Shown: one piece after another, positions 38,842 through 57,942 of the stretch
How the letters are laid out: each line of letters opens with the position of its first letter
Position numbering within the stretch: the stretch's first letter is position 1
Assembly: GCF_009848685.1 (NCBI RefSeq)
Contig: NZ_WXTX01000016.1
Location: 1 to 64,000, forward strand
Source: Andreprevotia sp. IGB-42
Lineage (GTDB): Bacteria > Pseudomonadota > Gammaproteobacteria > Burkholderiales > Chitinibacteraceae
Length of the DNA: 64,000 bases
Reading direction: 5' to 3'
Notes under the pieces: model-generated
Database searches by the model: none
Seen by the model: only the letters and a program-made list of their open reading frames with translations
Told to the model about the DNA's origin: nothing
Made by a program: the position numbers and the translations under genes

Positions 38842-38984
38842 GGGTACTCTTGGGTGCAATCTGGAGCCGGGCAATGCGGCTCCTTCAACCGGCGCGGACT
38901 GTAACACACTCCTTATACTGGCAACTACGCCACTAATGGACTACATAAGGTGAGTCGGCCGCCACCACCCTGACTGAGCCCGCC

Positions 38985-39794
38985 ATGAGCGATACCCTGC
39001 GCATCGATATCGACCCCACCGGTATTGCCACTGTAACGCTGGAGCGCCCCGGGCGCGCCAATGCCATTGATGAAGTGATGATGGCCGAGCTGACCGCCAC
39101 GCTGGCCGCACTGGCGCAGAACCCCACGCTGCGGGTGCTGGTGCTGACGGCCAGTGGCACCGCGTTTTCTGCCGGTGCGGATCACCAGTGGATGCAACGC
39201 ACGCTCGATGGTGATCAGCACCAGAACTTCGAAGAAGCGCTGCGGCTGGCGCGGCTATTGCAATTGCTCGATCGTTTTCCCGTTCCCACCATCGCCCGCG
39301 TCAACGGCGCTACGCTGGGCACCGGCGTTGGCCTCGTTGCCTGCTGCGATATGGTGGTGGCGCTCTCCACCAGCTGTTTCAGGCTGCCCGAAGTCGAACT
39401 GGGCCTGGTGCCCGCGGTAATCGGCCCCTTCGTTCTTGCCAAGATAGGCGCCAGCGCCGCGCGGCGCTACTTCCTGACCGCGGAGGAGATCAGCGCAGAA
39501 GCCGCGCAGCGCTTGGGCCTGGTGCATGAAGTGGCCACCGCCGCCGACGAACTGGACCTGATCGTGGAGCGCTGGTGCAAGCGGCTGCAGCGCAATGGCC
39601 AGCACGCAGTCACTTCCACCAAGAAGCTGATTGCCGCCGTGGGCCACCGGCTGATCGACGATGCGCTGATTTCCGACACCGCCCACCGCACTGCCCACCT
39701 GCGTGCACACCCGGAGGCGCGCGAAGGCGTCAGCCAGTACCTGCGCCACTATGCGCTGCGCCAGGCCAACCTGCATGGCAACCCGGACGACTGA
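38985..39794 (+). CDS. Enoyl-CoA hydratase/isomerase family protein
   Basis: 269 residues, crotonase fold. Markers: VTLERPGRANAIDEVMM, oxyanion-hole segment TAFSAGADHQWM, and NGATLGTGVGLVACCDMVVA with ELGLVPAVIGPFV. It resembles methylglutaconyl-CoA or short-chain enoyl-CoA hydratases, but no other acyl-CoA gene is nearby. Its stop codon directly abuts that of the convergent barrel-protein gene. Confidence 0.92.
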   Translation: MSDTLRIDIDPTGIATVTLERPGRANAIDEVMMAELTATLAALAQNPTLRVLVLTASGTAFSAGADHQWMQRTLDGDQHQNFEEALRLARLLQLLDRFPVPTIARVNGATLGTGVGLVACCDMVVALSTSCFRLPEVELGLVPAVIGPFVLAKIGASAARRYFLTAEEISAEAAQRLGLVHEVATAADELDLIVERWCKRLQRNGQHAVTSTKKLIAAVGHRLIDDALISDTAHRTAHLRAHPEAREGVSQYLRHYALRQANLHGNPDD

Positions 39795-40922
39795 TCAGCG
39801 CCAGGCGCTGCCCACCTGGAAGTAGAACGCACCTTCATCCGGCCCGCGCGCGATATCCATGCCCACGGCAAGGCCCAGCTTGCGCGCGATCAGGTAACGG
39901 AAACCGGCACCATAGCTGTACACATTGGCGGCCTCGCCATAATCATTCCATTTGCCCCAGGCCTTGCCCGCCCCGCCGAAGGCCAGCAACGACCAGCGCG
40001 ATGAAATATCCCAGCGTGCCTCCAGCTCGCCCACCAGCGTGGTTTCATCCTGATACCGGCCACGCGATACCCCGCGCAGGTCCACATAGGGCAATGCATA
40101 GAACGGCACATCGCCCCGTGCCGCCTGGCCTTGCACCCGCGCGCCCAGCACCCACGCCTTGCTCAGCGGCATCCAGTGATAGCCCTTGGCATCGTAGGTT
40201 TCAAAATCCTGCGTGCTGCCCAGCCAGCCACGCGCAGCCTGCGCCTGCAGCTCGGCATAGCTGCCGCTCTTGGGGAAGAAGAAATTGTCGCGTGATTCGT
40301 AATCGACCACCAGACCGCCCTTGCCGATGCGCCGGTCCTGCGGTTCCAGCCCCGCAGCCTCGGCATACTTGCCCTTGAACTGGCTGGTACCGCTGAAGTA
40401 CACGTAGCGGGCACCGGCGTACCAGTGGCTGTCTCCGATGCGGGCCAGCAGTTGCTGTACCAGCGCGGTGCCATCGAGCGTATAGGAATGCGGCTGGTTC
40501 TTGCGGTCGTAAAAATCGAGGTTGAAGCTGCCCTTGCCCACCGCCCCCAGGTAGCGGTAACGGTCGCCATCCCAGGTATGGAAGTGCACGGCGCCAGCAC
40601 CCCAAGTGCCGTTCTCGGTCATCATGCCGCCCAATCCGGTGATGTTGGGTGGTTGCGGGCGGCCACTTTCCTTGATGCTCTCCGCAGCGGATTCGGCAAT
40701 CGACTGATCGAAATACATCAGCATCAGCCCGCCGCCATAGCCCACCGCAGGCTCGGTAATCACCGTGGGAACCGGCAATGCGCCCTTGTGATTGAGCAGG
40801 AAATCGCTGACGTCGAATGCGCCATCATCGGGATCGTGGAATTCGCTGGCCCAACTGGCCTGGCTGCAGCCAGCCAGCAGCGCGGTGCAAACAAGCTGAC
40901 GCCATCCATTCAATACCTTCAT
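39795..40922 (-). CDS. Outer-membrane beta-barrel of the Omp85/bacterial surface antigen type
   Basis: 375 residues with a signal peptide (about 1-25, ending ASWA). No POTRA repeats; the whole chain looks like the 16-strand surface-antigen domain with alternating aromatic strands (HWYAGARYVYFSG, RDNFFFPKSGSYAELQAQ, YSYGAGFRYLIARKLGLAVG). RGPDEGAFYFQVGSAWR at the C-terminus is typical of this family, though it ends in Arg rather than Phe. Role unknown; such single-domain barrels are poorly characterised. Confidence 0.86.
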   Translation of the reverse strand: MKVLNGWRQLVCTALLAGCSQASWASEFHDPDDGAFDVSDFLLNHKGALPVPTVITEPAVGYGGGLMLMYFDQSIAESAAESIKESGRPQPPNITGLGGMMTENGTWGAGAVHFHTWDGDRYRYLGAVGKGSFNLDFYDRKNQPHSYTLDGTALVQQLLARIGDSHWYAGARYVYFSGTSQFKGKYAEAAGLEPQDRRIGKGGLVVDYESRDNFFFPKSGSYAELQAQAARGWLGSTQDFETYDAKGYHWMPLSKAWVLGARVQGQAARGDVPFYALPYVDLRGVSRGRYQDETTLVGELEARWDISSRWSLLAFGGAGKAWGKWNDYGEAANVYSYGAGFRYLIARKLGLAVGMDIARGPDEGAFYFQVGSAWR

Positions 40923-41030
40923 CCCCGCCCACCCCGCTTCATCGCCATTGCAGAAAGCATAGCCGATACGGATGGTGCCACGCCGCAGCTTGCGGCGCGA
41001 TACGGGTTTGCTTGGATAGCGGTCAGTAAA

Positions 41031-41897
41031 TCAGTGGATCACGCCCGGTGCCTTGCCGGTGCCGTGGCCGCCAAACAGTTGCACCACATCGACGGCATCG
41101 AACTCGTATTTCTTGCCGCAGAATTCGCAGGTCACATCGACATGGCCCTTTTCGGCAATCACGCCATCGACCTCATCCTTGCCCACCATTTCCAGCATGC
41201 CGCCCACGCGCTCACGCGAGCAGGTGCAGGCAAATGACGGCTTGGCGGGCTCGAACACGCGCACCTGCTCCTGGTGGAACAACCGGTACAGCATGTCCTG
41301 CGGCGGCAGGCCCAGCAGCTCTTCGTCGGTAATGGTTTCGGAGAGTTTCTGCACCCGCTCCCATGCATCCGGGTCACCCTGGCCGGCCGGCAGCTTCTGC
41401 ACCAGCAAACCCGCGCTGGTATCGGCATTGCACGCCAGCCACAGGCGGGTTTCCAATTGCTCCGAGCTGGCCATGTAGTGCTCGATGATCTCGGCCACGC
41501 TCTGGCCCGGTTCAAAGCCGACGATGCCCTGATAGGGCTCGCCCTCGGTCGGGTCCAGCGTGATGATGAACTTGCCCTTGCCCAGCAGCTCGCCCAGCGA
41601 CGCTTCGGGCACATCGCCATCCCAGCGTGCCATGGCGCGCATGGTCATCTTGCTGGTGACCTCGACCACCAGCAGCTTGACCGCGCCATCGCCATGCAGT
41701 TGCATGATCAGCGTGCCGTCGAACTTGAGCGTGGCCGACAGCAGCGTTGCCGCGGTCATCAGCTCGCCGATGCGTTTTTGCAGTACTGGCGGGTAGTCGT
41801 GCCGGGCCAGTACCTCCTTGTAGGTCGCATCGAGCTGCACGATTTCGCCCCGGACCGGGGCATCGTCAAAAATGAAACGCTCAAGCGTGTCTTGCAT
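41031..41897 (-). CDS. hslO: Redox-regulated chaperone Hsp33
   Basis: 288 residues from the ATG at 41897 (MQDTLERFIFDDAPVRGEIV). The C-terminal zinc switch has the CTCSRERVGG pair and the VTCEFCGKKYEF pair (CXC and CXXC). The N-terminal domain has LMQLHGDGAVKLLVVEVT. It unfolds and holds proteins under oxidative and heat stress in the cytosol. Confidence 0.97.
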   Translation of the reverse strand: MQDTLERFIFDDAPVRGEIVQLDATYKEVLARHDYPPVLQKRIGELMTAATLLSATLKFDGTLIMQLHGDGAVKLLVVEVTSKMTMRAMARWDGDVPEASLGELLGKGKFIITLDPTEGEPYQGIVGFEPGQSVAEIIEHYMASSEQLETRLWLACNADTSAGLLVQKLPAGQGDPDAWERVQKLSETITDEELLGLPPQDMLYRLFHQEQVRVFEPAKPSFACTCSRERVGGMLEMVGKDEVDGVIAEKGHVDVTCEFCGKKYEFDAVDVVQLFGGHGTGKAPGVIH

Positions 41898-42008
41898 GGT
41901 TTTTCCTTCATCGGCCATTGCCCGGCCGCCAGATCGAGGGCACCGCCACCCGCCAGGCAGGTTTTACGCGGTTTGGATGACAGCAGTAATTGGTGTCGAC
42001 TGCGGCAG

Positions 42009-43052
<1,044 letters not shown>

Positions 43053-43056
<4 letters not shown>

Positions 43057-43595
43057 CCCTCTTCCTCTATCAGTTGTATCAAGCGGTGCAGCGCGTGGCG
43101 CACCGTTTGCGCGCGTACCGCGACGCGGTCGCCGGCAAACAGCTTGCATTCGGTTTCTATGCCGGACGGCGTACCCCAGGCCAGCCACACGGTGCCCACC
43201 GGTTTCTCCGCCGAACCGCCGCCCGGGCCGGCCACGCCGGATACCGCCACACCCCATTGCGCGCCGGCCTGTGCCATGGCGCCCTGCACCATCATCGCCA
43301 CCACGGGCTCGCTGACCGCACCGAGCGCATCGATGACTGCCGGCGGCACATCCAGCATGGCAATCTTGGCATCGTTGGCATAGGTGATATAGCCGCGCTC
43401 GAACCACTTGCTGCTGCCGGCAATATCGGTAATCGCTCCGGCAATCAGCCCGCCGGTGCAGGATTCGGCCGTGGTAACCGTCTGGCCGAGGTCCAGCAGC
43501 AGTTGGCCCAGGCGCGTGGCCAGCGCAAGGCTGTGCTGCGGGTTGATGGGGGCGGTTTTATCCAAGGGAGTGGAATCCTGCACAAAGATGGGCAT
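43053..43595 (-). CDS. pncC: Nicotinamide-nucleotide amidohydrolase (CinA C-terminal family)
   Basis: 180 residues. Markers: TVTTAESCTGGLIAGAITDIAGSS, YITYANDAKIAMLDV, AVSEPVVAMM, and VAVSGVAGPGGGSAEKPVGTVW. It deamidates nicotinamide mononucleotide in pyridine nucleotide salvage. Its ATG overlaps the orn stop by one base (TGATG) and its stop overlaps the BPH start (ATGA), so all three are translationally coupled. Confidence 0.95.
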
Positions 43596-44164
43596 CAATC
43601 GCTGGGCAGCTCGTTCGCCGGCACTTTCAGGAAGTGCTCGCGATAGAACTTGAGTTCGTCGATGGATTCATACACATCCGCCAGCGCAGTGTGGCTGCCT
43701 TTCTTCTTGAACAGCTTGTAGATGGCCGGCTGCCAGCGCTTGCACAACTCCTTGAGTGTGGAGACATCCAGGTTGCGGTAATGGAACCAGTCTTCCAGCA
43801 CCGGCATCCAGCGCGCCATGAAGCGGCGATCCTGACCAATGGAATTGCCACACATGGGGCTACCCTGGCGCGGGCTGTATTGCGCGATGAAGGCCAGCGC
43901 CTCTGCCTGCACCTGTTCTTCGGACAGCGTGGATGCCTTCACCTTGTCGATCAGGCCGGAACGGCCATGCGTGCCCTTGTTCCAGTCGTCCATGCCATCG
44001 AGCACGGCGTCGCTCTGGTGTACCACCCACACCGGGCTTTCCGCCACGGTCACGAGGTTGCTGTCGGTAATGACGATGGCAAGCTCGATGATCTTGTCGT
44101 TGAGAGGATCCAGGCCGGTCATTTCCATGTCCAGCCAGATCAGGTTGTTCTGGTCTTGCGCCAT
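43595..44164 (-). CDS. orn: Oligoribonuclease
   Basis: 189 residues. DEDDh exonuclease motifs: [13 protein letters not shown] (Asp/Glu), [12 protein letters not shown] and [20 protein letters not shown] (final His/Asp). It degrades very short RNAs, including the pGpG left from cyclic-di-GMP breakdown. First gene of the four-gene operon; divergent from the protease gene at 44277. Confidence 0.98.
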
Positions 44165-44276
44165 TGCGCGCTCCTGTGTGTGATGCCGAATGCGTCATTC
44201 TACCATTCGGGGATGCCTGCCCGGCTTGGCCGCTGGCTGTGCGATAATTACCGACTGGATTTCAACTGTACCCGCC

Positions 44277-45527
44277 ATGACCGCCCATACGTTTTCCATC
44301 CTGTTCGTGTTTGCGCTGATCGTCAGCGTGCTGTTGCAACTGTGGCTGGCCATGCGCCAGATCAATCACGTGCGCCGCAACAGCGCGGCGGTGCCGGCCG
44401 AGTTTGCCGGGCGCATCACGCTGGAATCGCACCAGCGCGCCGCCAGCTATACGGTCACCAAAACCCGCTTCGGCATGATCAGCACGCTGTTCGAGGCCAT
44501 CGTGCTGCTGGCATTCACGCTGGGGGGCGGCATCGAATGGCTGACTACGCTGACCAACAGCTGGTTTCCCGCATCGCCCATCCTGGCCGGGGTAACGATG
44601 ATTGCGCTGCTGGGCCTGATCAACACGGTCATCTCGTTGCCCTTGTCGTGGATTTCCACCTTCCGCATCGAAGCCGCGTATGGCTTCAACCAGAGTACAC
44701 CTGCACTATGGCTGGGCGATCTCGTCAAGACCGCCGGCCTTGCCGTGGTGATCGGCCTGCCGCTGCTGAGCGCGGTGCTGTGGCTGATGAACCGCATGGG
44801 AGACAACTGGTGGCTGTACGTGTGGGGCACCTGGGTGGGTTTCTCTCTGCTGCTGATGTGGATCTTCCCGACCTGGATCGCCCCCTTGTTCAACAAGTTC
44901 GAACCGCTGCCGGACGATGGGCTGCGCAGCCGTATCGAAAACCTGCTGACCCGTTGCGGCTTCACGGCCAGCGGCATCTTCATGATGGACGGCAGCAAGC
45001 GCTCCAGCCACGGCAATGCCTACTTCACCGGTCTTGGCAAAACCAAGCGCATCGTGTTTTTCGATACCTTGCTCAAGCAGCTTGATGGCGATGAGATCGA
45101 AGCAGTACTCGCGCACGAGCTGGGCCATTTCAAGCGCCGCCACATCGTCAAGCGGCTGGTGTGGACCTTCGTGCTGATGCTGGGCCTGTTGTGGGTGCTG
45201 GGCCTGTTGATGAGCGAGAGCTGGTTTTACCAGGGCCTGGGCGTGCAGACCACAAGTACTGCCAACGCGCTCACGCTGTTCTTCCTGGTGATGCCGGTAT
45301 TCACGTTCATCTTCGGCCCGCTGGGCTCGATCATGTCGCGCAAGCACGAATACGAAGCCGATGCCTATGCGGCCGAGCAAGCATCCGCGCGTGATCTGAT
45401 CCAGGCACTGGTGAAGCTGTACCGCGACAATGCCGCCACGCTCACGCCGGACCCGCTGCACAGCATGTTCTACGACAGCCACCCGCCGGCAGCATTACGC
45501 ATTGCCGCATTGCAGCGGCTGGCCTAG
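44277..45527 (+). CDS. M48 family (Ste24/CAAX-protease type) membrane metallopeptidase
   Basis: 416 residues from the ATG at 44277. Several transmembrane helices (residues about 5-25, 65-85, 100-125, 150-200, 290-345). The zinc site is HELGHFKRRH in VLAHELGHFKRRH, with a downstream Glu in KHEYEADAYA. MDGSKRSSHGNAYFTG precedes the site, as in Ste24 proteins. In bacteria these enzymes act in membrane protein quality control. The next genes start 32 bases downstream. Confidence 0.94.
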   Translation: MTAHTFSILFVFALIVSVLLQLWLAMRQINHVRRNSAAVPAEFAGRITLESHQRAASYTVTKTRFGMISTLFEAIVLLAFTLGGGIEWLTTLTNSWFPASPILAGVTMIALLGLINTVISLPLSWISTFRIEAAYGFNQSTPALWLGDLVKTAGLAVVIGLPLLSAVLWLMNRMGDNWWLYVWGTWVGFSLLLMWIFPTWIAPLFNKFEPLPDDGLRSRIENLLTRCGFTASGIFMMDGSKRSSHGNAYFTGLGKTKRIVFFDTLLKQLDGDEIEAVLAHELGHFKRRHIVKRLVWTFVLMLGLLWVLGLLMSESWFYQGLGVQTTSTANALTLFFLVMPVFTFIFGPLGSIMSRKHEYEADAYAAEQASARDLIQALVKLYRDNAATLTPDPLHSMFYDSHPPAALRIAALQRLA

Positions 45528-45559
45528 AACGAGCAGTGAACCCACCACGGAGCCCAGCC

Positions 45560-45868
45560 ATGTCACTCGCCACCGAAACCTGCCAGGCCGATGCCGGCAA
45601 ACTGGACGAAATTGCCGCCGAAATGCTGGCGAGCGAACTGAACGAATGGCTGGTGCTGGGCGGAAAACTGGAAAAAACCTTCCGCTTCAAGGACTTTTAC
45701 CACACCATCGCCTTCGTGAATGCCGTGGCCTATATCGCCAACCGGCAGGATCACCACCCTGATCTGGAAGTCACCTACAGCCGCTGCAAGGTCGTGTGGA
45801 GTACCCACTCGGCCGGCGGCCTGTCCCGCAATGATTTCATCTGCGCCGCACGCCTGGACGCACTCTGA
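45560..45868 (+). CDS. Pterin-4a-carbinolamine dehydratase
   Basis: 102 residues. Family core: LEKTFRFKDFYHTIAFVNAVAYIAN, then RQDHHPDLEVTYSRCKVVWSTHSAGGLSRND with the catalytic His residues (split here; both segments are contiguous in the protein). It recycles tetrahydrobiopterin-type cofactor or acts in folate salvage. It lies between the protease gene and rsgA, with short gaps, probably one operon. The ATG at 45560 gives the normal N-terminus. Confidence 0.94.
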   Translation: MSLATETCQADAGKLDEIAAEMLASELNEWLVLGGKLEKTFRFKDFYHTIAFVNAVAYIANRQDHHPDLEVTYSRCKVVWSTHSAGGLSRNDFICAARLDAL

Positions 45869-45881
45869 ACACGGAAACCCC

Positions 45882-46760
45882 TTGACTGAAATCGCCCGCA
45901 TCGTCGCCAGCTACGGCAGAGCTTATATTTTGGAACTCGCCAATGGTGAGCGGCGCACCGCCAGTGCCCGTGGCAAGAAAACCGACTACGCCTGCGGTGA
46001 CCGGGTAAAAATCACCGTGATCAATCACGAGCAGGCGGTGATCGAGGCAGTGGAGCCGCGCAAGACGCTGCTGTACCGCTCCGACCAGTGGCGCCAGAAG
46101 CTGATCGCCGCCAACATCACGCAACTGGTGATCGTGGTGGCCACCGAGCCGAGCTTTTCCGACGAGCTGATCAGCCGCGCCATCATTGCGGCGGAAGCCG
46201 GCGACATCAAGCCGGTGATCTGCCTGAACAAATCGGAGCTGCCGGGTGCGGACAAGGCGCGGGCGCGGCTGCAATACTTCCTGTCGCTGGGCTACCCGCT
46301 GATCGAAGTGTCCGCATTGCAGGATGTGACGCCGCTGCGCACCGCGCTGGAGGGCGAAACCAGCGTGCTGGTGGGGCAATCGGGCATGGGCAAATCCACG
46401 CTGACCAATGCATTGATCCCGGAAGCCAACGCGCGTGTGAAGGAAATCTCGGTCGCGCTCGATTCCGGCAAGCACACCACGACCAATGCCACGCTGTACA
46501 AGCTGGACGAGCGCTCCGAACTGATCGACTCCCCGGGCCTGCAGTCATTTGGCCTGGCGCACGTGAAAGCGGAAGACCTGCCCTACCTGATGCCGGAGTT
46601 CCGGGTACTGATCGGCGAGTGCCGCTTTGCCAATTGCCGCCACCGGCAAGAGCCCGATTGCGCCATGACCAGCGCGGTGAAAGCCGGCAAGATCCCCAAT
46701 GAACGCCTGAACCTGCTGCACCGCTTGCAGGATGAGCTGGCGCAGCTCAGCACGTATTGA
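45882..46760 (+). CDS. rsgA: Ribosome small subunit-dependent GTPase A
   Basis: 292 residues from a TTG at 45882; no in-frame ATG fits, and GGAA lies 5-6 bases upstream. An OB-fold N-terminus is followed by a circularly permuted GTPase: ICLNKSELPG (G4), then GQSGMGKSTLTNAL (G1) and IDSPGLQSFGL (G3). A C-terminal zinc knuckle has ECRFANCRHRQEPDCAM. It assists late maturation of the 30S subunit. Confidence 0.96.
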   Translation: MTEIARIVASYGRAYILELANGERRTASARGKKTDYACGDRVKITVINHEQAVIEAVEPRKTLLYRSDQWRQKLIAANITQLVIVVATEPSFSDELISRAIIAAEAGDIKPVICLNKSELPGADKARARLQYFLSLGYPLIEVSALQDVTPLRTALEGETSVLVGQSGMGKSTLTNALIPEANARVKEISVALDSGKHTTTNATLYKLDERSELIDSPGLQSFGLAHVKAEDLPYLMPEFRVLIGECRFANCRHRQEPDCAMTSAVKAGKIPNERLNLLHRLQDELAQLSTY

Positions 46761-46854
46761 GCGCAGCCGCCGCTCCCGTTGCGGATTCTGCTGCGAGTCA
46801 GTGCTATGAATAGCGGCCGCAGCGTAGCCTCGCCATACGGCCGGGTTGCCAGCT

Positions 46855-49257
46855 TCAATCGTCGAACCACGCCGGATAGAGCGCGCGCAGCCGCGCGATG
46901 TACTGGCGCCGCACGGGGATCGCCTCCTTGCCAATGCGCAACTCGTATTGGCCCCTGCCCTTGTGCTCGGCCCGGCTGACGCGCCTGGGGTTCACCAGGT
47001 AGGAGCGGTGCACCTGCAGTAACATTTCTCCGGGGAAGTACAGGCGGATGGTGCGCAGGCGCAGCGTTACATACAGCGGCATGGCACCGTCCTGGCAATA
47101 GATGCCGCTGTACCCCTTGTCGGCGCGGATGAACAGCAGGCGCTCGCGCCGCGACGCAATCTCGTACAGCTCGGCCAGCACGTGTGGCTGCCGGGTCAGC
47201 TCGTTCAGATGCTGGCGTATCAGCGCAATCTGCGCCAGCAGGTGCCGCAGCAGCGCTTCATCCTCTGCGCTGGCAGGCGCATGGAAGGCAATGGCCAGTT
47301 GCTGATCCGCGCTATCGTCCACATTGGCCCATGCCAGCGATCGATCCACGCTGAACTGCAGCGCATCCCCTCCCGCGACGCGGCCGGCCCAGTCAGCCTG
47401 AGCATCCGCGCCGGGTGGCCAATCACCCGCCTGCTGTTGTGTCTCGCCATCCTGCAACACCACCACGCTGCGTACCCGCGCTTCTGCGGCAAGAAAACCC
47501 ATCACGGTTTCCAGCATTTTTTCCACGCTGCGTTGCTCACCCAGTACCTGCGTCAGCCGGTTGAGCGCCTCAAGGCGCTCCGCCAGCGATGATGTGGGCG
47601 GCAGCGGTTGCTGCGTAGTTGCGGATACGGCGGCTTCATCGGCGAGCACCCAATCCGCATCGATCGGCACGCGGCCAGCCAGTGCCAGCGGGGCCAGTTG
47701 CCTTTCCACTAGCCGCGCCTGCTCCCGCAGTGCATCGATGCCCGGCAAGGCAGGCAATACCGCGTAGCCGGGCCGCTGCGGTGCCTGTGCTTGATCGGTG
47801 GCAAACTCCTGCTGCAGCTGGTGCAACAGCGGCAGTAATGCCCACAGCTGGCTGCGTATATCCAGCACCGTCAGCGCCTCGCGCTGGCGCGCGCGGTAGC
47901 GCAGGTAGTGCCAGCGCAACAGCAACAGCACGCCCAGCGTGAGCAAGGTCGCTAGCACGCCCAGCAACGGATCCACCCATACCGGGCGGCCACGCCAGTA
48001 CGCCATGGCAAGATCCAGCCGGCCACGCCACGGATGGTAGTGGCGATACACCTGCCGCAGCAGACTGTGTGCGCCGGGCGCATCGCTGCCCAGTTGCCAC
48101 AGTGCGATGCCGGCAAGGCCCGCCTGATCGGCATGAACCAGTTTGTCCTGCGCGGCGCGCGGGCTCTCGAAGGTGACGAACTGGCGGCGGCCGGCGCTAT
48201 ACAGGTAGCTGGCATGCGCGCGGGCATCCCAGTACTCGTTGAACGCCGGATCTGCTTTCATGTACAGCACTTCGCTGGCGGTAAAGGTGCCGGTGGGGCC
48301 GGTATCGGTATCGTCCCAGCTGCCGAACGGCATGCCGGTGGCCGATTGATACAGGCCATTGCCAGTGGCGGGTACGCCGGTCCAGCTGGTGGCCTCCAGA
48401 TCGAGCACCAGCACCAGCTTGCCGGTGGGGACGCCGCGCTGCTGCAACAATTGCAGTGCCTGCGCTACGCTCCTGGCGTCCTGCGCGTTGCGCCCGTACA
48501 AGGGCGCGCTATGCGCGGTGCGGTGAGCGTTGTTGCCCTGGAAATCATAGGCGTCGACCATGGCGAAATCGACGGCGGCCACCTCATCACGCGTCAGCGG
48601 TGGTGCAAGCTGCGTACCGCTGACGCCCAGCGTGGTGGAAAGCAGGTAATGACGGCCGCTACGCTGCCCGTGCGCATCCAGCGCGCCGCGCAGCGCCTGC
48701 AGCAGCTTGATCTTGTTGACCTGGTCATCGGCACGCGGCACCACATCGCCGCCACCGATCACCGGGTATTGCCAATCGATCTCTACCCCGTCGAAGCCGA
48801 ACCGGTCGATGAAAGCCAGCGCGCTCTGCACAAAGTGCTGGCGCAACGTCGGATCGGCAGCAACCGCCGGATAGTGGGCAGACCAGCTCCAGCCACCAAT
48901 CGAAATCAGCGTTTTCAGCTGCGGATGCGCCGCCTTGATCTCGCGCAGCTTGGCAAAGGTGCCCCGCACCGACCCGGCCCCTTGCGGGCCGTTGTAGGCA
49001 AAGCTGAGATCAGCGACGTAATCGCCGGGCAGCACGTTGCCATCTGCATCCAGTTGCGCATATGCATAGGTGAGATGGGTCAGCTGATCGAACGGAATCT
49101 CTGCCAGCGAGTTCTGGTTCTGATAAATGGTCCAGAACGGGTAATAACCTATAACCAGCGGCGCTGCCGGTCCCTTTGCTGCCTGCGCGATTGCACACGC
49201 AGCACCCGCCAGCATGAGCAACAGTCCTTGCCAGCATTGTCTCCACACTCCCGCCAT
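46855..49257 (-). CDS. Transmembrane chitinase-like (GH18) sensor fused to a LytTR DNA-binding domain
   Basis: 800 residues. Signal peptide (1-26), then a GH18 domain (about 32-405): VIGYYPFWTIYQ, LISIGGWSWSAHYP, MVDAYDFQGNN and the barrel-end Trp in GIALWQLGSD. The active-site motif, usually DGxDxDWE, reads DGVEIDWQYP (residues 156-165): Glu159 for Asp and Gln163 for the catalytic Glu (codon CAA at 48769-48771). A transmembrane helix (429-448) is followed by a basic coiled stretch, a GAF-like region (about 560-690) and a LytTR domain (about 700-795; LLQVHRSYLVNPRRV, IPVRRQYIARLRALYP). I infer that the outer domain binds chitin fragments without cutting them and that the inner LytTR domain regulates genes directly. 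GAGG lies 5 bases before the ATG at 49257. Confidence 0.92.
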   Translation of the reverse strand: MAGVWRQCWQGLLLMLAGAACAIAQAAKGPAAPLVIGYYPFWTIYQNQNSLAEIPFDQLTHLTYAYAQLDADGNVLPGDYVADLSFAYNGPQGAGSVRGTFAKLREIKAAHPQLKTLISIGGWSWSAHYPAVAADPTLRQHFVQSALAFIDRFGFDGVEIDWQYPVIGGGDVVPRADDQVNKIKLLQALRGALDAHGQRSGRHYLLSTTLGVSGTQLAPPLTRDEVAAVDFAMVDAYDFQGNNAHRTAHSAPLYGRNAQDARSVAQALQLLQQRGVPTGKLVLVLDLEATSWTGVPATGNGLYQSATGMPFGSWDDTDTGPTGTFTASEVLYMKADPAFNEYWDARAHASYLYSAGRRQFVTFESPRAAQDKLVHADQAGLAGIALWQLGSDAPGAHSLLRQVYRHYHPWRGRLDLAMAYWRGRPVWVDPLLGVLATLLTLGVLLLLRWHYLRYRARQREALTVLDIRSQLWALLPLLHQLQQEFATDQAQAPQRPGYAVLPALPGIDALREQARLVERQLAPLALAGRVPIDADWVLADEAAVSATTQQPLPPTSSLAERLEALNRLTQVLGEQRSVEKMLETVMGFLAAEARVRSVVVLQDGETQQQAGDWPPGADAQADWAGRVAGGDALQFSVDRSLAWANVDDSADQQLAIAFHAPASAEDEALLRHLLAQIALIRQHLNELTRQPHVLAELYEIASRRERLLFIRADKGYSGIYCQDGAMPLYVTLRLRTIRLYFPGEMLLQVHRSYLVNPRRVSRAEHKGRGQYELRIGKEAIPVRRQYIARLRALYPAWFDD

Positions 49258-49477
49258 GTTGACCTCAAGTTCGGGTGGGTCAATTGATGCGGTCCATTGT
49301 ATGGCCCGCACATGCGCAGGGTGGGCTGAACAGGCCGGGAATTGCAGAAAAACAGCAATGTCCGTGAAACGGCAACGCTGAAAAATCAGCTACAAGGCAT
49401 TGATTAGTAACAAAAAAGCCTGGTAAACCGTGAAAAAGACAGGCGCCCAGATCGCCGCTTGATTTGGCATGCATAAA

Positions 49478-49501
49478 GCCACCGTACCGCAGCGCGGTGG
49501 C
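49478..49501 (-). terminator. Hairpin after the phytase-like gene
   Basis: Inverted repeat gccaccg / cggtggc with a 10-nt loop lies 31 bases downstream of the minus-strand gene ending at 49532. The T tail (gctttat on the minus strand) is weak. Confidence 0.45.
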
Positions 49502-49531
49502 TGCCGCAGTTAGCCGGTGTGATTTGCCATA

Positions 49532-50668
49532 TCACTGCGGCAGCACTTCGAACACCAGTAGCTGGGTAATCTGCCCGGGATTGAAATTGTTGTCGGACAC
49601 CATCACCAGGCTGCGATTGCCGTTGCCGAGCGTGCGCCCCCACGACAGCCCCTCGATATTGTCCAGCCGGGGCAGGCCCAGCGTGTTCAGATCCAGCACC
49701 AAGCGTTTGCGCATCGCCTGATAGCGCGCACCGGGCAAGGCCGTCACCGCGCTGATATCGCTGGCTGATGCCGCATCCGCCTCGTACAGGCGGATATGGT
49801 TGACGTAGCGGTTATCAGCCAGCTGCACGCCGGCACGCTCGATCACCAGCACCGTATCGTTGCCGGATGCCAGCACCTCGGATACGCCATTGTCTGCTGC
49901 CTTGCCGGGTGCCGGCGCAGCCGGAATCGGGTCTAGCGGATAGGCATACTGCGCCAGCACCTTGCCCGCGCGGTCAATGCGGGTGAAGCGCGCCATTGCG
50001 CCGGTTTGCGGTGTAGGCGGCGCACCATCCTCGTAGAGCGGCCCTTCCATGGCCGCCCACAACGATTGTGCATCGGTGGAAAAACTCAGCCCTTCCAGCG
50101 CCAGGTTGTTGCGTGCGCCCTGCCCGGCGCCACGGCGCGTGCCGAGCATGGCGGGCAATGGCAAGGTTTCGATCAGCTTGCCCTGCTGATCGCTGCGCGC
50201 AATGAACGGATCCAGCGCCAGGGTTCTATCGCCCTCGCTGGTCCACCAGATATCGTGCGTTTGCGGATCGATGCGCAAGGATTCCGGATCTGGCACCACG
50301 CCGCCGGTGTTGCGGTCTGGATAGGGCTGATCATCTGCCTGCAACAACGTGGTGGCCTTGCGGACCTCCACTTGCGTAAACCCGCTACGGTCATAGCGCA
50401 GTTGCGCGGTGTAGAAACGCGCGGGTGCCTGGTCGGAGCGGTCATCGCTGATCAGCAACCAGCGATCGGTGGCCCGGTCGTAATCGATGCCGGACAACCC
50501 GCCCACCAGCGTGCCATCCACATACAGGTCATTGGCAATGGTGCGCGTGCCGATCAATCGCAGCGATGCAATGGGGGGCGCTGCATGTGCCGCCTGCAGC
50601 AAAGCGGACGACAGCAGCAGCGCCGAAAGGCAGGCGGAAAGGCGCAAAGCAGACCGGTGAACAGACAT
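49532..50668 (-). CDS. Esterase-like protein of the phytase-like family
   Basis: 378 residues with a signal peptide ending AHA. It fits the 'esterase-like activity of phytase' family: GGLSGIDYDRATDRWLLISDDRS near the N-terminus, PDPESLRIDPQTHDIWWTSEGD, LALEGLSFSTD, and the end DNIEGLSWGRTLGNG with LVMVSDNNFN. A beta-propeller is expected. The substrate is unknown; a phosphoester is plausible. Exported. Confidence 0.9.
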   Translation of the reverse strand: MSVHRSALRLSACLSALLLSSALLQAAHAAPPIASLRLIGTRTIANDLYVDGTLVGGLSGIDYDRATDRWLLISDDRSDQAPARFYTAQLRYDRSGFTQVEVRKATTLLQADDQPYPDRNTGGVVPDPESLRIDPQTHDIWWTSEGDRTLALDPFIARSDQQGKLIETLPLPAMLGTRRGAGQGARNNLALEGLSFSTDAQSLWAAMEGPLYEDGAPPTPQTGAMARFTRIDRAGKVLAQYAYPLDPIPAAPAPGKAADNGVSEVLASGNDTVLVIERAGVQLADNRYVNHIRLYEADAASASDISAVTALPGARYQAMRKRLVLDLNTLGLPRLDNIEGLSWGRTLGNGNRSLVMVSDNNFNPGQITQLLVFEVLPQ

Positions 50669-50744
50669 GGGGCAACCAGATTACATAACCGTGGCCAGTA
50701 TTCAGATCATCGGTGACAAGCTTGTGAACGGTACCGGCGGTGCC

Positions 50745-51299
50745 TCAGTGCGGGGTAGCCCGGCGCAGGCGCCGCACCCGCAGCAGCCATAGCACATGCA
50801 GCCGCCAAGCCAGCTTGACCAGTGTATAGCCCACCACCGCCAGAATGCCCGCCAGCAGCGGCAGGCCGATGAGCAGCGGCACGCCCAGCGACAGCATCCA
50901 GTGGCACATCTGGCTGACCCATTGCATGGGCGTGGCGCCAGACCACGACGGCATGGCCCCCACACCATCCGCACCGGTATGGCCGGTGACAAAACTGCCC
51001 AGCTTGAACGCCACCCAATAAATAGGGCCTATGGTGAGTGGGTTGGTATAAAACGTGGCCACCACCGCCACCGGCAGATTTACGCGGCACGCCAGGGACA
51101 GGCAACTGGCGGTAATCACCTGCAGCGGGCCGGGAATCATGCCGCCTATCATGCCGACAGCCACCCCACCCGCCACCGAGCGGCGGTTGAGGTGCCACAG
51201 ATTGGGGTGGGAAAACCAGTGCGAAAAACGCGCCAGGAAGCGGTTCTTCTGCAAAGAAGCATGATCTGGCAGATAACGACGTAGAAAACGTTTGGACAT
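50745..51299 (-). CDS. DUF2062 membrane protein
   Basis: 184 residues. DUF2062 features: N-terminal basic segment, HLNRRSVAGGVAVGMIGGMIPGP, LPVAVVATFYTNPLTIGPIYW, and a final transmembrane helix pair (about 125-165). Function unknown. It is 76 bases from the phytase-like gene and divergent from relA. Confidence 0.9.
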   Translation of the reverse strand: MSKRFLRRYLPDHASLQKNRFLARFSHWFSHPNLWHLNRRSVAGGVAVGMIGGMIPGPLQVITASCLSLACRVNLPVAVVATFYTNPLTIGPIYWVAFKLGSFVTGHTGADGVGAMPSWSGATPMQWVSQMCHWMLSLGVPLLIGLPLLAGILAVVGYTLVKLAWRLHVLWLLRVRRLRRATPH

Positions 51300-51400
51300 G
51301 AAGGCAGCCGGAGTGAAAAGGCCCGGAAATATAAGCGTCTTCCCGGCTTCTAGAGACAGACAGATTACGGCAAAATTCCTTCAATCTCCCAGAGTTGACT

Positions 51401-53620
51401 ATGGTCGCCGTTACACGCCCGCTTGCATTATCGATCGCCGAAGCAGCAAACCCCGAGCACTGGCTTGCGCAACTGGCCGAGCGTTACCCGCCGGAACAGA
51501 TCGACCGCCTGCGCAGCGCGCTCGATTGGGCGGCTGAAATCTACGGCGACAGCACGCAGGCGGATATTTGCGATCCGTTGTTCAAGCACGCGGTGGCTGC
51601 CGCTTCCATCGTTGCCGATCTCAACATGGATGCCGATACCGTCATCGCCAGCCTGCTGTTTGCGGTATCCGATTTTGTGCCCGATGCCGCCAGCGAGGTA
51701 GAAACCCGCTTTGGCAAGGAAGTGGCCAAGCTGGTGGATGGCGTGGACCGGGTACGCAAGATACGCGTGCTGGCCAACCTGGGCGCACATGCGGCACCGG
51801 CCGCCAAGACGCAGGATGCGGCCGCGCAGGTGGAAGCCATCCGCAAGATGCTGCTGGCCATGGTGGAAGACATCCGCGCGGTATTGATCAAGCTGGCATG
51901 GCGCACACAAACCATGCATGTGCTGGCCGCCGCGCCGGAAGACATCCGCACCGCCATCGCCCGGGAAACGCTGGATCTGTTTGCGCCACTGGCCAACCGG
52001 CTGGGCGTATGGCAGATCAAGTGGGAGCTGGAAGACCTGGGCTTCCGCCACCTGCACCCGGATACCTACAAGAAAATCGCCAGGCTGCTGGACGAACGCC
52101 GTATCGACCGCGAGCATTTCATCGACGATGTGCTGTTCACGCTGCGCCGCGAGGTGGAAGCCGCCGGCATCGAGGGCGCCAACCTGATGGGGCGGCCCAA
52201 GCACATCTACAGCATCTGGCGGAAGATGCAGAAAAAGAAGCTCGATTTTTCCGAGCTGTATGACATCCGCGCGGTACGCGTGCTGGTGCCGGAGCTGAAG
52301 GACTGCTACACGGTGCTGGGCATCGTGCACAACCTGTGGCAGCCGATACCGGGCGAATTCGATGATTACATTGCCCACCCCAAGGGCAACAACTACCGCA
52401 GCCTGCACACCGCGGTGATCGGCCCGGAAGACAAGGCAGTCGAGGTGCAGATCCGCACCTTCGAGATGCACGAACATGCCGAGCTGGGCGTGGCTGCGCA
52501 CTGGCGCTACAAGGAAGGCGGCAAGGGCAACGCCAAGTACGAAGAGAAGATTGCCTGGCTGCGCCAGTTGCTGGACTGGAAAAGCGATGTGGCATCCGAA
52601 ACCCAGCTGGCGGATGCATTCAAGGCCGAACTGTTCGACGACACCATCTACGCACTGACCCCGGCCGGCCGCGTGATTGCGCTGCCCAAGGGTTCGACCC
52701 CGGTGGATTTTGCCTACCACCTGCATACCGATCTGGGCCACCGCTGCCGCGGTGCCAAGGTGAACGGACAGATCGTGCCGCTGTCCACCGCGCTGGAAAA
52801 CGGCCAGCGCGTGGAGATTCTTGCCGCCAAGGAAGGGGGCCCCAGCCTGGACTGGCTGCACCAGGGCTATGTGAAGAGCAACCGCGCGCAGCAGAAGCTG
52901 CGGGCGTGGATACGCCAGCAAAACCTGGATGTCGCCATCGAGAACGGCCGCGCGCTGTACGACAAGGAAGCCGCGCGCAACGGCGCCACCCAGGTGAACC
53001 AGGAGGCGGTGTCGCACCGGCTCGACTACAAGACCATCGAAGAACTGTATGCGGGCCTGGGTCACGGCGATGTGAGCTTGCGCGAGCTGGCCGATGCATT
53101 GACCGCGGATGCCAAACCGGCTGCCGAATTTGCCGTCAGCCCGGAAGATGTGATCCGCCGCGCGCGCGCCAGCGGCCAGGGCGAAGGCATCCTGATCGAG
53201 GGCGTCGACAAGCTGATGACCTTGCTGGCCAAATGCTGCAAGCCGGTGCCGCCGGATGCGGTGGTGGGTTTCGTCACCAAGGGGCGCGGTATTTCCATCC
53301 ACCGCGCTGACTGCGCCACGCTCAAGCGCCTTGCCGGCGCATCGCCGGAGCGCTTGATCAGCGCGGATTGGGGCAAGCATGCGGGCAGCGTGTTCGCCAC
53401 CGACCTGGTGATCGAGGCGCACGACCGCCCCAGCCTGCTGCGCGATCTGTCCGACGTGATGTCGCGCGAGAAAATCAACGTCACCGGCGTGAATACGCTA
53501 TCGCGCGATACGCTGGCCAAGATGCGCTTCACCGTGGAAATCCGCAGCGCGGATGACCTGGCACGCATCAAGCTGCGCCTGGCTGATGTCACCGGCGTAC
53601 TCAGCGTCAACCGCGTGTAA
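51401..53620 (+). CDS. relA: (p)ppGpp synthetase RelA
   Basis: 739 residues. The N-terminal hydrolase-like domain lacks the metal-binding HD pair (VIASLLFAVSDF where hydrolases have LLHDVVED), as in monofunctional RelA. The synthetase domain has YDIRAVRVLV and the RelA-type acidic motif EFDDYIAHPKGNNYRSLHT. A TGS domain (DDTIYALTPAGRVIALPKG) and a C-terminal ACT domain (VFATDLVIEAHDRPSLLRDL) follow. It makes the starvation alarmone on stalled ribosomes. The ATG at 51401 follows AGAG. Confidence 0.96.
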   Translation: MVAVTRPLALSIAEAANPEHWLAQLAERYPPEQIDRLRSALDWAAEIYGDSTQADICDPLFKHAVAAASIVADLNMDADTVIASLLFAVSDFVPDAASEVETRFGKEVAKLVDGVDRVRKIRVLANLGAHAAPAAKTQDAAAQVEAIRKMLLAMVEDIRAVLIKLAWRTQTMHVLAAAPEDIRTAIARETLDLFAPLANRLGVWQIKWELEDLGFRHLHPDTYKKIARLLDERRIDREHFIDDVLFTLRREVEAAGIEGANLMGRPKHIYSIWRKMQKKKLDFSELYDIRAVRVLVPELKDCYTVLGIVHNLWQPIPGEFDDYIAHPKGNNYRSLHTAVIGPEDKAVEVQIRTFEMHEHAELGVAAHWRYKEGGKGNAKYEEKIAWLRQLLDWKSDVASETQLADAFKAELFDDTIYALTPAGRVIALPKGSTPVDFAYHLHTDLGHRCRGAKVNGQIVPLSTALENGQRVEILAAKEGGPSLDWLHQGYVKSNRAQQKLRAWIRQQNLDVAIENGRALYDKEAARNGATQVNQEAVSHRLDYKTIEELYAGLGHGDVSLRELADALTADAKPAAEFAVSPEDVIRRARASGQGEGILIEGVDKLMTLLAKCCKPVPPDAVVGFVTKGRGISIHRADCATLKRLAGASPERLISADWGKHAGSVFATDLVIEAHDRPSLLRDLSDVMSREKINVTGVNTLSRDTLAKMRFTVEIRSADDLARIKLRLADVTGVLSVNRV

Positions 53621-53737
53621 ATTCTCACCCATTCGTCATGAAACCTGTCAAGCGGGGCAATCCAGCCTAGGCAGAATGCGTGTTCGCCTTCTATTTTGTA
53701 AGCACAACCATAAAAGAACACCGCTCCGGAGCCCCGC

Positions 53738-55618
53738 ATGCAATCGCTGCGTACCAAACTGATCTTTTTCATCGTGCTGCTGACGGCAGCAGTCACCTCC
53801 ATCCTGACCATTGCCGCTTACACCCGCATGCGCAGCCAGGTAGTGGACGGGCTGACCAGCGAAATCCGCGGCGTGGCCACCGGCTACAACGTGGCGCTGC
53901 GTAACTGGATATTCGATAAGCAGGAGGTTGTGGCCGGTGGTGCCAAGGCACTGGCTATGGCCAGCGAACCGCAGGCCGCACTGTTGCAGGTGGAAAAAAG
54001 TGCCAAGTTCGATCTGGCCTACTTCGGCACCGTCGACAAGCAGATGATCCCGAGCCATCCGGTTGACCTGCCGGCCGATTTCGACCCCACCTCGCGCCCC
54101 TGGTACCAGCAGGCTGTCAGTGCGGGCGAGCCCATCCTCACGCCACCGTATGTGGATGCATCTTCCAAACAGCTGATCATGTCTTTTGCGGCGCCGGTGC
54201 TCGCTGATGGCCAGCTCAAGGGGGTGCTTGGCACGGATATCCAGCTGACCCAGGTGGTAAAAGACATCCTCAACATCAAGCTGACCGGGAATGGCTATGC
54301 CTTTCTCGCCAACAAGGAAGGTGCGGTACTGGCACATGCCAAACCGGATATGGCAATGAAGCCGACCACGGATCTTTCGCCAGATCTCGCAGCCGGCAAG
54401 CTCGGTGCCATGGCCAGCTCGCAAGCGCTGCAGGAAATCCGCATCGATGGCGACATGAAATATTTCTACCTGCAAAGCATTGAAGGCACGCCGTTCTATC
54501 TTGGCCTCGTCATTGACAAGAGCGCGGTGCTGTCATCGCTGACCACGCTGATCTGGTTGTGTGCTGGCGCATTGGTGGTGGTATTGCTGATTGTGGTGCC
54601 CTTGGCCGGTGCCCTCGTGAACCAGTTGCTGAGCGGGCTCACCCGTGTGAAGAACGCCATGCAGGAAATCGCTCAGGGCGGCGGTGATCTGACACGCCAC
54701 ATCGATGTAGCGGGCAAGGACGAGATCGCGCAGACCGCAGAGGCATTCAACCGCTTCGTAGCGCAACTGCGCGACATGTTCCGTGAAATCCGCCAGGAAA
54801 CCGGCCGGCTGACGCACGGCGTGGCGGATATCAACGGGGTATTGTCCGAGCTGTCACGCGATTCTCAGCAGCTATCCGATCTGTCGGCATCCAACGCGGC
54901 CACCATCGAGGAAATCACCGTCAGCATCAGCCATATCGCCGAGAACGCGCACGATGCCAATGATCTGGTGGGCGCTACCGCACAGTTGTCCGGCGAATCG
55001 GCATCCACGGTGCGCGATGTGGCGAGCGAAGTGGGCAAATCGGCCAACGAGGTGGAAGAGCTCTCTACGCTGCTCGGCCGCCTGAACCAGCGCTCGCAGG
55101 AAATCAGCGGCATCATCCGCGTGATCAAGGAAATTGCCGATCAGACCAACTTGCTGGCGCTCAATGCAGCCATCGAAGCGGCGCGCGCCGGTGAACAGGG
55201 CCGCGGCTTTGCCGTGGTAGCGGACGAGGTGCGCAAGCTGGCCGAGCGCACCGGCCGCGCCACCCAGGAAATCACCGGCATGATCGACGGCGTACGCACC
55301 GAAACCGACGCCGCCGTTGCCAACATGCAGAAAACGCATGACGCGGTACAAAGCGGCGTGGCACTCTCCGATACCGCTGCCAGCAAGATTGCGCATATCC
55401 GCGAGAACATGGACGCGGTGATCGCCAAGATGGGCGAAATTGCCCACGCCACGCGCGAGCAGCAGAATGCCACCACCGCCATGGCGCAAAGTGCCGAGAG
55501 CATTACCAGCAAGATGCAGGCATCGGATCACGCGATGCAGCGTGCCACCGGCACCGTGCATGAGCTCAAATCCATGGCGGACTTTCTTGAACAGATGTTT
55601 GGCCGTTTCCGGTTCTGA
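53738..55618 (+). CDS. Methyl-accepting chemotaxis protein with dCache sensor
   Basis: 626 residues. Transmembrane helix at about 8-28; periplasmic double-Cache domain (about 35-270); second helix at about 275-300; HAMP (about 300-352); cytoplasmic signalling domain with the hairpin tip [21 protein letters not shown]. The sensor has RPWYQQAV followed by PYVDASSKQ, resembling the amino-acid-binding dCache motif, so an amino acid ligand is possible. No CheW-tail pentapeptide is seen at the C-terminus. The stop overlaps an in-frame ATG of the next gene. Confidence 0.95.
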
Positions 55619-55632
55619 TGATGGAGCGTTGT

Positions 55633-55989
55633 ATGCGTTTGCTGCTTGCCCTGCTGTTGACCAGCCTGCTGGGCGCCTGTGTATCGTATGAATACCTGCC
55701 GCCAGCCACCGATCAGGGCAAGACCTGCGTGGCCGTATGCACGGGAGTGCGTGAGCAGTGCTACGGCACCGAGGAGCAGAAAGCCCGCCAGGAGCAGGAC
55801 CGCTGCGAAATCCGCGAAACCAGCAAGCAGACACAATGCCTGCTGCTGGCCAAGACCGATGCCGACAAGGCCACCTGCCTGAAGAACAAGGGCAGCTGCT
55901 ATTACTCGGCCAATACCTATCGCTGCGATTCGCAATACGACCAGTGCTTCGTGCAGTGCGGCGGGCGCATCATCGAGCACAAGAAATAG
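55633..55989 (+). CDS. Small Cys-rich lipoprotein
   Basis: 118 residues from the ATG at 55633, chosen because GGAG lies 6 bases upstream and it gives a clean lipobox (LTSLLGAC). The mature part has ten further Cys (CVAVCTGVREQCYG, KATCLKNKGSCYY, YRCDSQYDQCFVQC), probably forming disulfides. Family not recognised. It starts 14 bases after the chemoreceptor stop, so both are co-transcribed; whether it serves the receptor is unknown. Confidence 0.75.
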   Translation: MRLLLALLLTSLLGACVSYEYLPPATDQGKTCVAVCTGVREQCYGTEEQKARQEQDRCEIRETSKQTQCLLLAKTDADKATCLKNKGSCYYSANTYRCDSQYDQCFVQCGGRIIEHKK

Positions 55990-56035
55990 TCGGCGGATCG
56001 GCATGCACCGGATGATGCGTGATTGAACAGCCAGC

Positions 56036-56065
56036 AAAAAAACGGCGCCAGTGGCGCCGTTTTTC
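56036..56065. terminator. Bidirectional terminator between the lipoprotein gene and pyk
   Basis: A 9-bp stem (aacggcgcc / ggcgccgtt) with a 3-nt loop has A-tracts on the left and TTTTT on the right. It serves both convergent genes. Confidence 0.93.
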
Positions 56066-56086
56066 ATTGCATTGCTACCGTACAGC

Positions 56087-57523: not shown

Positions 57524-57691
57524 GGAAAAACTCCTATTAGTAGATGCTTATATGTTTGATTGTGCTGCCGGGAAGGCGACAGGCAAGGTCGCAGCCGTCC
57601 GACAGTAAGGAAACGGGGAGGTGCGCTGAGCGCAAAAGGAAGAGAAGCTCTCTAGTGGCCATGAACATGCTGGGTCGTTGGCACGGGCGCC

Positions 57692-57766: not shown

Positions 57767-57942
57767 CAAGCATTCTTCAAATTTACGACATTATCAATAC
57801 ATTCAACTACTTAACGACGGAATCGCTAGAGTAGCACCGGGCTATTTTCCGGCGTTTCCCCACGTTTTTCGTGGATATTTCCTTTTCGGTGCTACTGAAG
57901 TGCTACGCTGCAACACACTTCGGTCTACGAGTAGCAGCCAAC

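Follow-up and report, generated by a model that had tools for sequence, protein, structure and literature searches.

Can a chitinase fold that no longer cuts serve as the receptor of a DNA-binding protein? This question is raised by one gene on a 64,000-nucleotide stretch of DNA from Andreprevotia sp. IGB-42 (contig NZ_WXTX01000016.1, positions 1 to 64,000; the whole stretch is called the window here), which joins an exported GH18 domain, a transmembrane helix, a GAF-like region and a LytTR domain. An initial annotation, made from the letters of the sequence, had proposed this layout and had read the protein as a non-hydrolysing sensor of chitin oligosaccharides that acts on DNA from the membrane without a kinase. 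To our knowledge, the sensing of insoluble polymers such as chitin is poorly described outside Vibrio. The analysis presented here makes it likely that the GH18-LytTR protein is a one-component transmembrane transcription regulator, which would sense chitin fragments through a pseudo-chitinase; its binding of ligand and of DNA is what we infer. The positions of the features discussed are collected in Table 1.

Layout of the GH18-LytTR protein

The Pfam scan of the window protein finds GH18 at aa 35-392 (218.6 bits; cut-off 29.6) and LytTR at aa 707-793 (42.6 bits; cut-off 22.6); besides these two there is no match at E<=1, and histidine kinase (HK), receiver (REC) and GAF domains are absent from the scan. 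The strongest hydropathy segment covers aa 428-446, and there is an N-terminal hydrophobic segment at aa 8-26. In the full-length AlphaFold model (mean pLDDT 83), the barrel spans residues 34-393 and is followed by a long helix (428-494) with the transmembrane segment at its start, a low-confidence linker (527-555), a small mixed domain (558-660), a further helix (664-688) and then the LytTR domain. Foldseek places the barrel near chitinases, including B. circulans ChiA1 (1itx) and Chitiniphilus shinanonensis ChiL (6kst). When the C-terminal part is modelled alone, it aligns with the LytTR structure 3d6w (Z 13.6, rmsd 2.3, 99 residues) and with ComE (Z 11.2), and also, at Z 10.8-12.8 and mostly over 120-135 residues, with phytochrome and GAF domains. 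The GAF-like region, missed by Pfam, is clear in the predicted fold, and it is this structure comparison that assigns it to the GAF fold. Because the Pfam domains, the AlphaFold model and the fold matches agree with each other and with the hydropathy, the layout first proposed is right, GAF-like region included; the strand, which the initial annotation did not give, is minus.

The inner domain combines a score above the LytTR cut-off, the LytTR fold and an HRS-type motif, whose residues Q748, V749, H750, R751 and S752 are invariant in a 24-row alignment. In LytTR domains this motif has a DNA-contact role (PMC4227749). As in a one-component regulator, input and output lie in one protein that lacks REC and HK and has a predicted transmembrane helix between the two. 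Layout, fold and the missing HK and REC matches support the proposed membrane regulator without a kinase, for which binding to DNA is a prediction.

A pseudo-chitinase without the catalytic Glu

In the window protein the DxxDxDxE motif of GH18 chitinases reads FDGVEIDWQYP. Gln stands in place of the catalytic Glu, and the first Asp of DxDxE is replaced by Glu159, just as had been read from the codons at the outset. The catalytic position was compared in 49 GH18-LytTR proteins, 29 from Chitinibacteraceae and 20 from gammaproteobacteria. (The collection followed one LytTR subfamily, so that GH18 fusions to other LytTR subfamilies lie outside its scope, and it includes two proteins, from L093 and L147, with identical last 400 residues.) This position is Arg in 30, Gln in 15, His in two, Thr in one, Ile in one and Glu in none. 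A motif with the catalytic Glu, as a competent GH18 chitinase would have, is found in 0/49, including all of the orthologues in which an intact motif would have spoken against a sensor; a GH18 fold lacking this Glu is a feature of GH18 lectins (chi-lectins).

As a control, the unfused GH18 matches of the window genome retain Glu in 22 of 23 cases (Pfam matches, several of them read by eye, with the ambiguous L116 scored as not kept). Since none of the 49 fused proteins keeps Glu and 22/23 of the unfused ones do, the loss is a trait of the family. A sequencing error, raised initially as a possible cause, is excluded because Gln stands at this position in A. lacus and A. chitinilytica too and none of the other 48 proteins has Glu. 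It is the loss that is conserved, in 49/49, and not the change to Gln that had been singled out for checking: Gln is seen in 4/29 Chitinibacteraceae members and in 11/20 gammaproteobacterial members. The window genome as a whole has 25 GH18 and 4 LytTR matches, with two proteins carrying both. Its GH18 proteins without Glu are these two fusions and the ambiguous L116, one fewer than the four of 25 secreted GH18 proteins that the A. ripae study lists as lacking the catalytic Glu and that its authors consider likely inactive (PMC8802321).

Could the domain still be a slow chitinase that uses a different acid? The rest of the motif would suit such an enzyme, with Asp at the Asp142 position in 46/49 and an acidic Glu at the Asp140 position in 41/49; the Trp that precedes the catalytic position is present in 49/49. 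However, the missing Glu is the catalytic acid/base, without which the A. ripae authors expect inactivity (PMC8802321), and its position is held by Arg, Gln, His, Thr or Ile in every member, which makes a residual chitinase highly improbable. As judged from these alignments, the view that the outer GH18 barrel is non-hydrolysing, held from the start, is supported.

A candidate operator

The candidate operator in Chitinibacteraceae consists of direct repeats TTTCAYGR (RTTTCAYGR), 65-66 or 74-76 bp apart, with a site like that of integration host factor (IHF) between them; upstream of the Andreprevotia regulator genes the core of the alteromonad word described below occurs twice as TTTCACGR. Sites between the repeats were scored against WATCARNNNNTTR, which we take to be the IHF consensus. 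In the window, the near end of the operator (49362-49435) is 105 bp from the start codon of the regulator gene. Repeat pairs lie 105-425 bp upstream of the regulator in seven of the eight members of the window subgroup (spacing 65, 66 or 75), and the eighth (G013) has a pair with two mismatches; Chitinilyticum piscinae has a pair upstream of its regulator with a spacing of 74. Just upstream of the regulators of the paralogue, Chitinibacter and Deefgea groups, no repeat pair was seen by eye or by scan. (A -10-like TACAAT at 49296-49301, which lies at an equal distance in A. lacus, was spotted by eye in the promoter alignment.)

Over 43 genomes of the family, the strict repeat pair gives 59 matches. 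An IHF-like site (at least 8 of 9 letters) stands 36 bp, once 35 bp, before the second repeat in 13 of the 59, compared with 0.27% per pair in shuffles, a test that is not fully independent because the offset was read from the first sites found. These 13 pairs have spacings of 65, 66, 74, 75 or 76 and none of 67-73, and they are spread over nine genomes, each of which has the regulator; seven pairs are upstream of it and six elsewhere. Composite patterns with up to 3 mismatches give 15 matches vs 3 for the reversed pattern at spacing 66, and 19 vs 1 at spacing 75.

The genes beside the sites were scored with two small profiles of our own (GH18 and CBM5/12) on 61 loci, which include 30 loci for the 59 strict-pair matches and every 3-mismatch composite match; a site of at least 23 in G003 was scored without a locus. 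Eighteen loci reach a score of at least 23 of 25. Seven of these are at the regulator gene itself, and among the remaining 11, nine have a CBM5/12 open reading frame (ORF) within 1.5 kb, one has a GH18 gene and one a GH8 gene (Pfam). A CBM5/12 or GH18 ORF is present at 10/21 loci with a score of 22, one being the regulator, and at 0/22 loci with a score of 21 or less. The six IHF-bearing sites away from the regulator adjoin four GH5 genes, each with two CBM5/12 modules, one GH18 gene and one polysaccharide deacetylase gene. The window genome has three weaker sites, with 2, 3 and 3 mismatches, that stand before chitin-type genes: a CBM5/12 deacetylase gene, a CBM5/12 gene and, across a gap of 132 bp, a gene for an 868-aa GH18 protein that carries two CBM5/12 modules. 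The repeats are oriented away from the gene at the ten enzyme-gene sites measured and towards it at the window regulator.

In nine alteromonad-type loci, the stretch downstream of the regulator was aligned, and an NCATTTCRTGA-like word occurs twice, 73-76 bp apart, in eight of them (threshold 8 or more of 11 letters; L153 had one copy, and two of the stretches are from near-identical genomes). This places the pair ahead of the gene for the TonB receptor that neighbours the regulator. In G442 and G464, alteromonad-type genomes with strict-pattern matches, a second candidate operator stands before the second GH18 gene. A palindrome-like TGACAGCGCTGTCA, or a close version of it, as for a LacI-type repressor, follows the repeats downstream of the regulator in eight of the nine stretches (L092, L093, L147-L151 and L153).

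These sites might belong to another chitin regulator. The GH18-LytTR gene would then be just one of its targets, and the GH18-LytTR protein would either have a different regulatory role or be a surface lectin. Several observations weigh against the operator being that of the GH18-LytTR protein, and some of them favour this alternative directly. There is no site of at least 23 in 11 of the 21 family genomes with the regulator. One genome (G019) has no GH18-LytTR at E<=1e-3 and carries a site with a score of 23 (L230:7291-7373) beside a CBM5/12 deacetylase gene, which may be either a relic or the site of another factor, and two more regulator-less genomes (G021 and G022) have score-22, 3-mismatch matches with a CBM ORF nearby. 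In addition, the paralogue G000:C34 has no such repeat pair within the 18 kb scanned, the bare repeat pair outnumbers the reversed control by a factor of only about two (59 vs 27), and neither GH5 (Pfam: Cellulase) nor GH8 is specific for chitin. The repeats, 65-76 bp apart, are also set wider than the usual LytTR pair (~12 bp), and their core TCATGA is readable as a palindrome; therefore another factor might bind the candidate operator. However, sites of at least 23 are found in 10/21 genomes with the regulator and in 1/22 without it (Fisher p 0.0015, genomes not independent). In Chitinibacteraceae as in alteromonads, moreover, the regulator gene has beside it a comparable pair of repeats at a comparable distance from each other, and the TTC-NN-G core resembles the half-site TTCNNGCA of the LytTR regulator RcoM (PMC11347149). 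Ownership of the operator by another regulator is, in our judgment, distinctly unlikely.

Neighbouring genes and the possible ligand

The chitin link drawn in the initial annotation is strengthened by the candidate operator and by the gammaproteobacterial neighbours, but not by the window gene's own. No chitin-type gene was seen beside it (ORFs read by eye, two neighbours scanned), and within the slice 38001-58000 the clusters common to at least four compared loci are the regulator and a chemotaxis receptor alone. In Motilimonas (L157:3764-9992), a genome with three GH18-LytTR genes, two GH18 genes follow the regulator on the same strand. Vibrio sp. Of7-15 (L159) has a lytic polysaccharide monooxygenase (LPMO) with GbpA_2 and CBM5/12 about 3.5 kb from the regulator, and in Thalassotalea (L093) a TonB receptor, a tryptophan halogenase and a GH18 gene lie downstream of it. 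Nine alteromonad-type genomes have a second GH18 gene (~350 aa) on the same strand, 7-11 kb from the regulator; in G464, one of these nine, it is followed by a GH20 gene, and in two more genomes (G522 and G492) the second GH18 sits on another contig. All 16 gammaproteobacterial genomes searched have at least one further GH18 match.

The barrel might sense something besides free chitin oligomers, such as another N-acetylglucosamine glycan or, as in ChiS, a sugar-loaded binding protein. The sugar-contact positions bear on this point. It had been claimed that the aromatic residues and the barrel-end Trp remain, which holds for the window protein, with W387 and the groove residues Tyr237-Asp238, and which for the Trp extends to 29/29 Chitinibacteraceae members. 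It does not hold for the rest of the family: the Trp is kept in 1/20 gammaproteobacterial members (lost in 19/49, all of them in this group), and the Tyr214-equivalent is Tyr in 7/49 (lost in 42/49); the Asp215-equivalent is Asp in 32/49. Both losses are further points against a chitin receptor and in favour of a different ligand, as are the active-site Arg of 30/49 members and the match of two alteromonad neighbour GH18 proteins to the EndoS barrel model as well (30.0 and 28.1 bits; cut-off 27). ChiS, moreover, owes its activation to a periplasmic binding protein, which probably contacts it directly (PMC11856585). Yet W387, Y237 and D238 are kept in the window protein, and many neighbours and operator genes are of chitin type (CBM5/12, GH18, GH20, LPMO, deacetylase), with the result that we regard another ligand as rather unlikely.

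Proposed mechanism

In the mechanism that we propose for the putative chitin-sensing regulator, the periplasmic GH18 barrel would bind chitin fragments without cutting them. Ligand binding would shift the helix-GAF-helix relay and hence the inner pair of LytTR domains, which would bind the direct repeats RTTTCAYGR 65-76 bp apart while IHF bends the DNA between them. The complex would then activate genes for chitin-binding hydrolases and deacetylases together with its own gene and, in alteromonads, the TonB-receptor gene. As enzyme and sensor share one fold, the sensor may report the fragments that its relatives release.

A broader account, which we offer tentatively as possible rather than probable, makes the pseudo-chitinase regulators the chitin switch of Chitinibacteraceae and of the alteromonad chitin locus. 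An inactive GH18 barrel would have taken the place of the sensor in a hybrid kinase with LytTR output, the kinase would have decayed in alteromonads and vanished in Chitinibacteraceae, and the IHF-bent, two-site operator would have kept its spacing in both groups.

The family, the candidate operator and the target genes amount to a predicted regulon with base positions, which is directly testable. The sensor domain can be expressed separately, and the family itself supplies active-site variants with Gln, Arg or His in place of the Glu. In this system an enzyme would have been taken over as a receptor and, if the proposed origin is true, a signalling protein would also have lost its kinase.

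Family spread and origin

Andreprevotia and Chitiniphilus belong to the Chitinibacteraceae, Neisseriales. A search with the C-terminal half matched 24/43 genomes of the family at E<=1e-3, and the loci read in 22 of these 24 hold 29 full GH18-LytTR proteins across 21 genomes. (L076-L090 and L095 are named copies of loci under G handles and were counted once; L075 was excluded for lacking GH18.) G027 and G029 have short LytTR matches only. In G030 the LytTR subfamily is represented by a 294-aa protein that has no GH18 (L075:7899-8780). The window-genome paralogue (L074:1909-5625) is near genes for a solute-binding protein, an OmpR-type response regulator and a histidine kinase, and homologues of this neighbour set are also close to the regulator in the Chitinibacter loci L063 and L068.

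In a class-wide sample, one of 369 genomes matched at E<=1e-16, the window genome itself; the family is therefore patchy. A single-protein scan of genome contigs with the window protein gave 12 pattern matches, none confirmed, and it was the profile scan that found relatives; among named genomes it added Marinifaba, a Colwellia bin, two Thalassotalea, a Saccharospirillaceae bin, Vibrio sp. Of7-15 and Motilimonas. The LytTR module occurs at E<=1e-25 in 13/395 genomes of the Colwellia bin's family and in 1/329 of the Vibrio family. Thirteen further gammaproteobacterial matches to this module (E<=1e-25, which excludes one weaker row at E 3.4e-13) are all fused to GH18 (13/13), and none has the Glu.

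Hybrid kinases (HisKA, HATPase, receiver) of Desulfobacterium and SAR324 bins end in a related GAF-like-LytTR module (two scanned in full). Profile comparison of the GAF-like parts of regulators and hybrid kinases gives a probability of 92.7%, and an extra middle stretch in the longer gammaproteobacterial members compares with the kinase core at 75.2% (E 2.5e-5, one comparison); simple patterns for the H, N and G boxes matched nothing in this degenerate, kinase-like stretch. On such sequence comparisons, an origin by kinase decay is plausible but modestly supported. Hybrid kinases or, for L108, a fragment, with a receiver and a C-terminal LytTR, were noted at L098-L103 and L108 in Desulfobacterium, SAR324 and Hahella bins (L100, L101 and L108 scanned with Pfam, the remaining kinases of L098-L103 read by eye). 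L104, L105 and L107 (labelled Ferrimonas and Marinobacter) hold stop-to-stop frames of 356-364 aa with a related LytTR; L104 was scanned and has no GH18.

Table 1. Positions of the GH18-LytTR gene, its parts, the candidate operator and the upstream neighbour in the window
Feature	Positions	Strand	Basis
GH18-TM-GAF-like-LytTR gene (TM, transmembrane helix), 800 aa	46855..49257	minus	ATG at 49257, stop at 46855 (ORF, Pfam)
N-terminal signal peptide or signal anchor, aa 1-27	49177..49257	minus	predicted: hydrophobic segment and helix
GH18 TIM barrel, aa 35-392, pseudo-chitinase	48082..49155	minus	Pfam, AlphaFold model, Foldseek to chitinases
Degenerate DxxDxDxE motif DGVEIDWQ; Gln codon 48769-48771	48769..48792	minus	translation, alignment
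Transmembrane helix, aa 428-450	47908..47976	minus	predicted: hydropathy; unbroken model helix 428-494
GAF-like domain, aa 558-660	47278..47586	minus	models, VIA-align Z 10.8-12.8, profile match to same hybrid-kinase segment
Signalling helix linking GAF-like to LytTR, aa 664-690	47188..47268	minus	model; conserved in alignments
LytTR DNA-binding domain with VHRSYLVN motif, aa 707-793	46879..47139	minus	Pfam; 3d6w Z 13.6, ComE Z 11.2
Operator repeat 1 TTTCACGG	49428..49435	minus	candidate, pattern scan
IHF-like site AATCAATGCCTTG between repeats	49393..49405	minus	9/9 to WATCARNNNNTTR
Operator repeat 2 TTTCACGG, 66 bp from repeat 1	49362..49369	minus	candidate, pattern scan
Phytase-like esterase, upstream neighbour (context only)	49532..50668	minus	Pfam

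Comparison with known systems

A literature search, which covered few subscription journals, found by title or abstract no other paper that treats a GH18-LytTR protein as a regulator. To this extent the initial claim that no regulator of this layout has been described stands, but the domain pair itself had already been drawn: the Figure 1 legend of the A. ripae study names LytTR among the domains of GH18 proteins, in the available text without a reading as a regulator (PMC8802321).

The hybrid kinases of the Desulfobacterium and SAR324 bins, with the order HK-REC-GAF-like-LytTR, share a related C-terminal GAF-like-LytTR module with the window protein; unlike it, they have a kinase and a receiver, and L100 and L101, the two scanned over their full length, have Cache sensors. 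The plant GH18 receptor kinase CHRK1 is reportedly also without the catalytic Glu. Plant receptors of this kind combine an outer GH18 domain with an inner signalling domain, but their output is a kinase and, in the available text, the GH18 domain is treated as enzymatic (PMC5485988). RsgI6 of Clostridium thermocellum likewise uses a near-inactive glycoside hydrolase as an outer sensor across the membrane; it belongs to another family (GH10), however, and is an anti-sigma factor that does not bind DNA (PMC4711584).

Among regulators that act on DNA, ChiS and TfoS of Vibrio cholerae are chitin-responsive and transmembrane, as proposed here. They are set apart by their descriptions, which in the available text give neither of them a GH18 or a LytTR domain, and ChiS acts through a binding protein (PMC11856585). 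CoxC of Afipia carboxidovorans, an MHYT-LytTR protein, is a single membrane sensor with a C-terminal LytTR that binds direct repeats from the membrane, and both it and RcoM recognise TTCNNGCA-like repeats; it differs in being a repressor with an MHYT gas sensor and seven predicted transmembrane segments, in contrast to the exported pseudo-chitinase, single transmembrane helix and GAF-like relay of the window protein (PMC11347149). AlgR is a response regulator, and its sites at the algD promoter lie farther from the start and have the core CCGTTCGTC; nevertheless, the LytTR sites RB1 and RB2 are 76 bp apart (-470 and -394), and IHF and a proposed looping of the DNA complete an arrangement like that of the candidate operator (PMC4064291).

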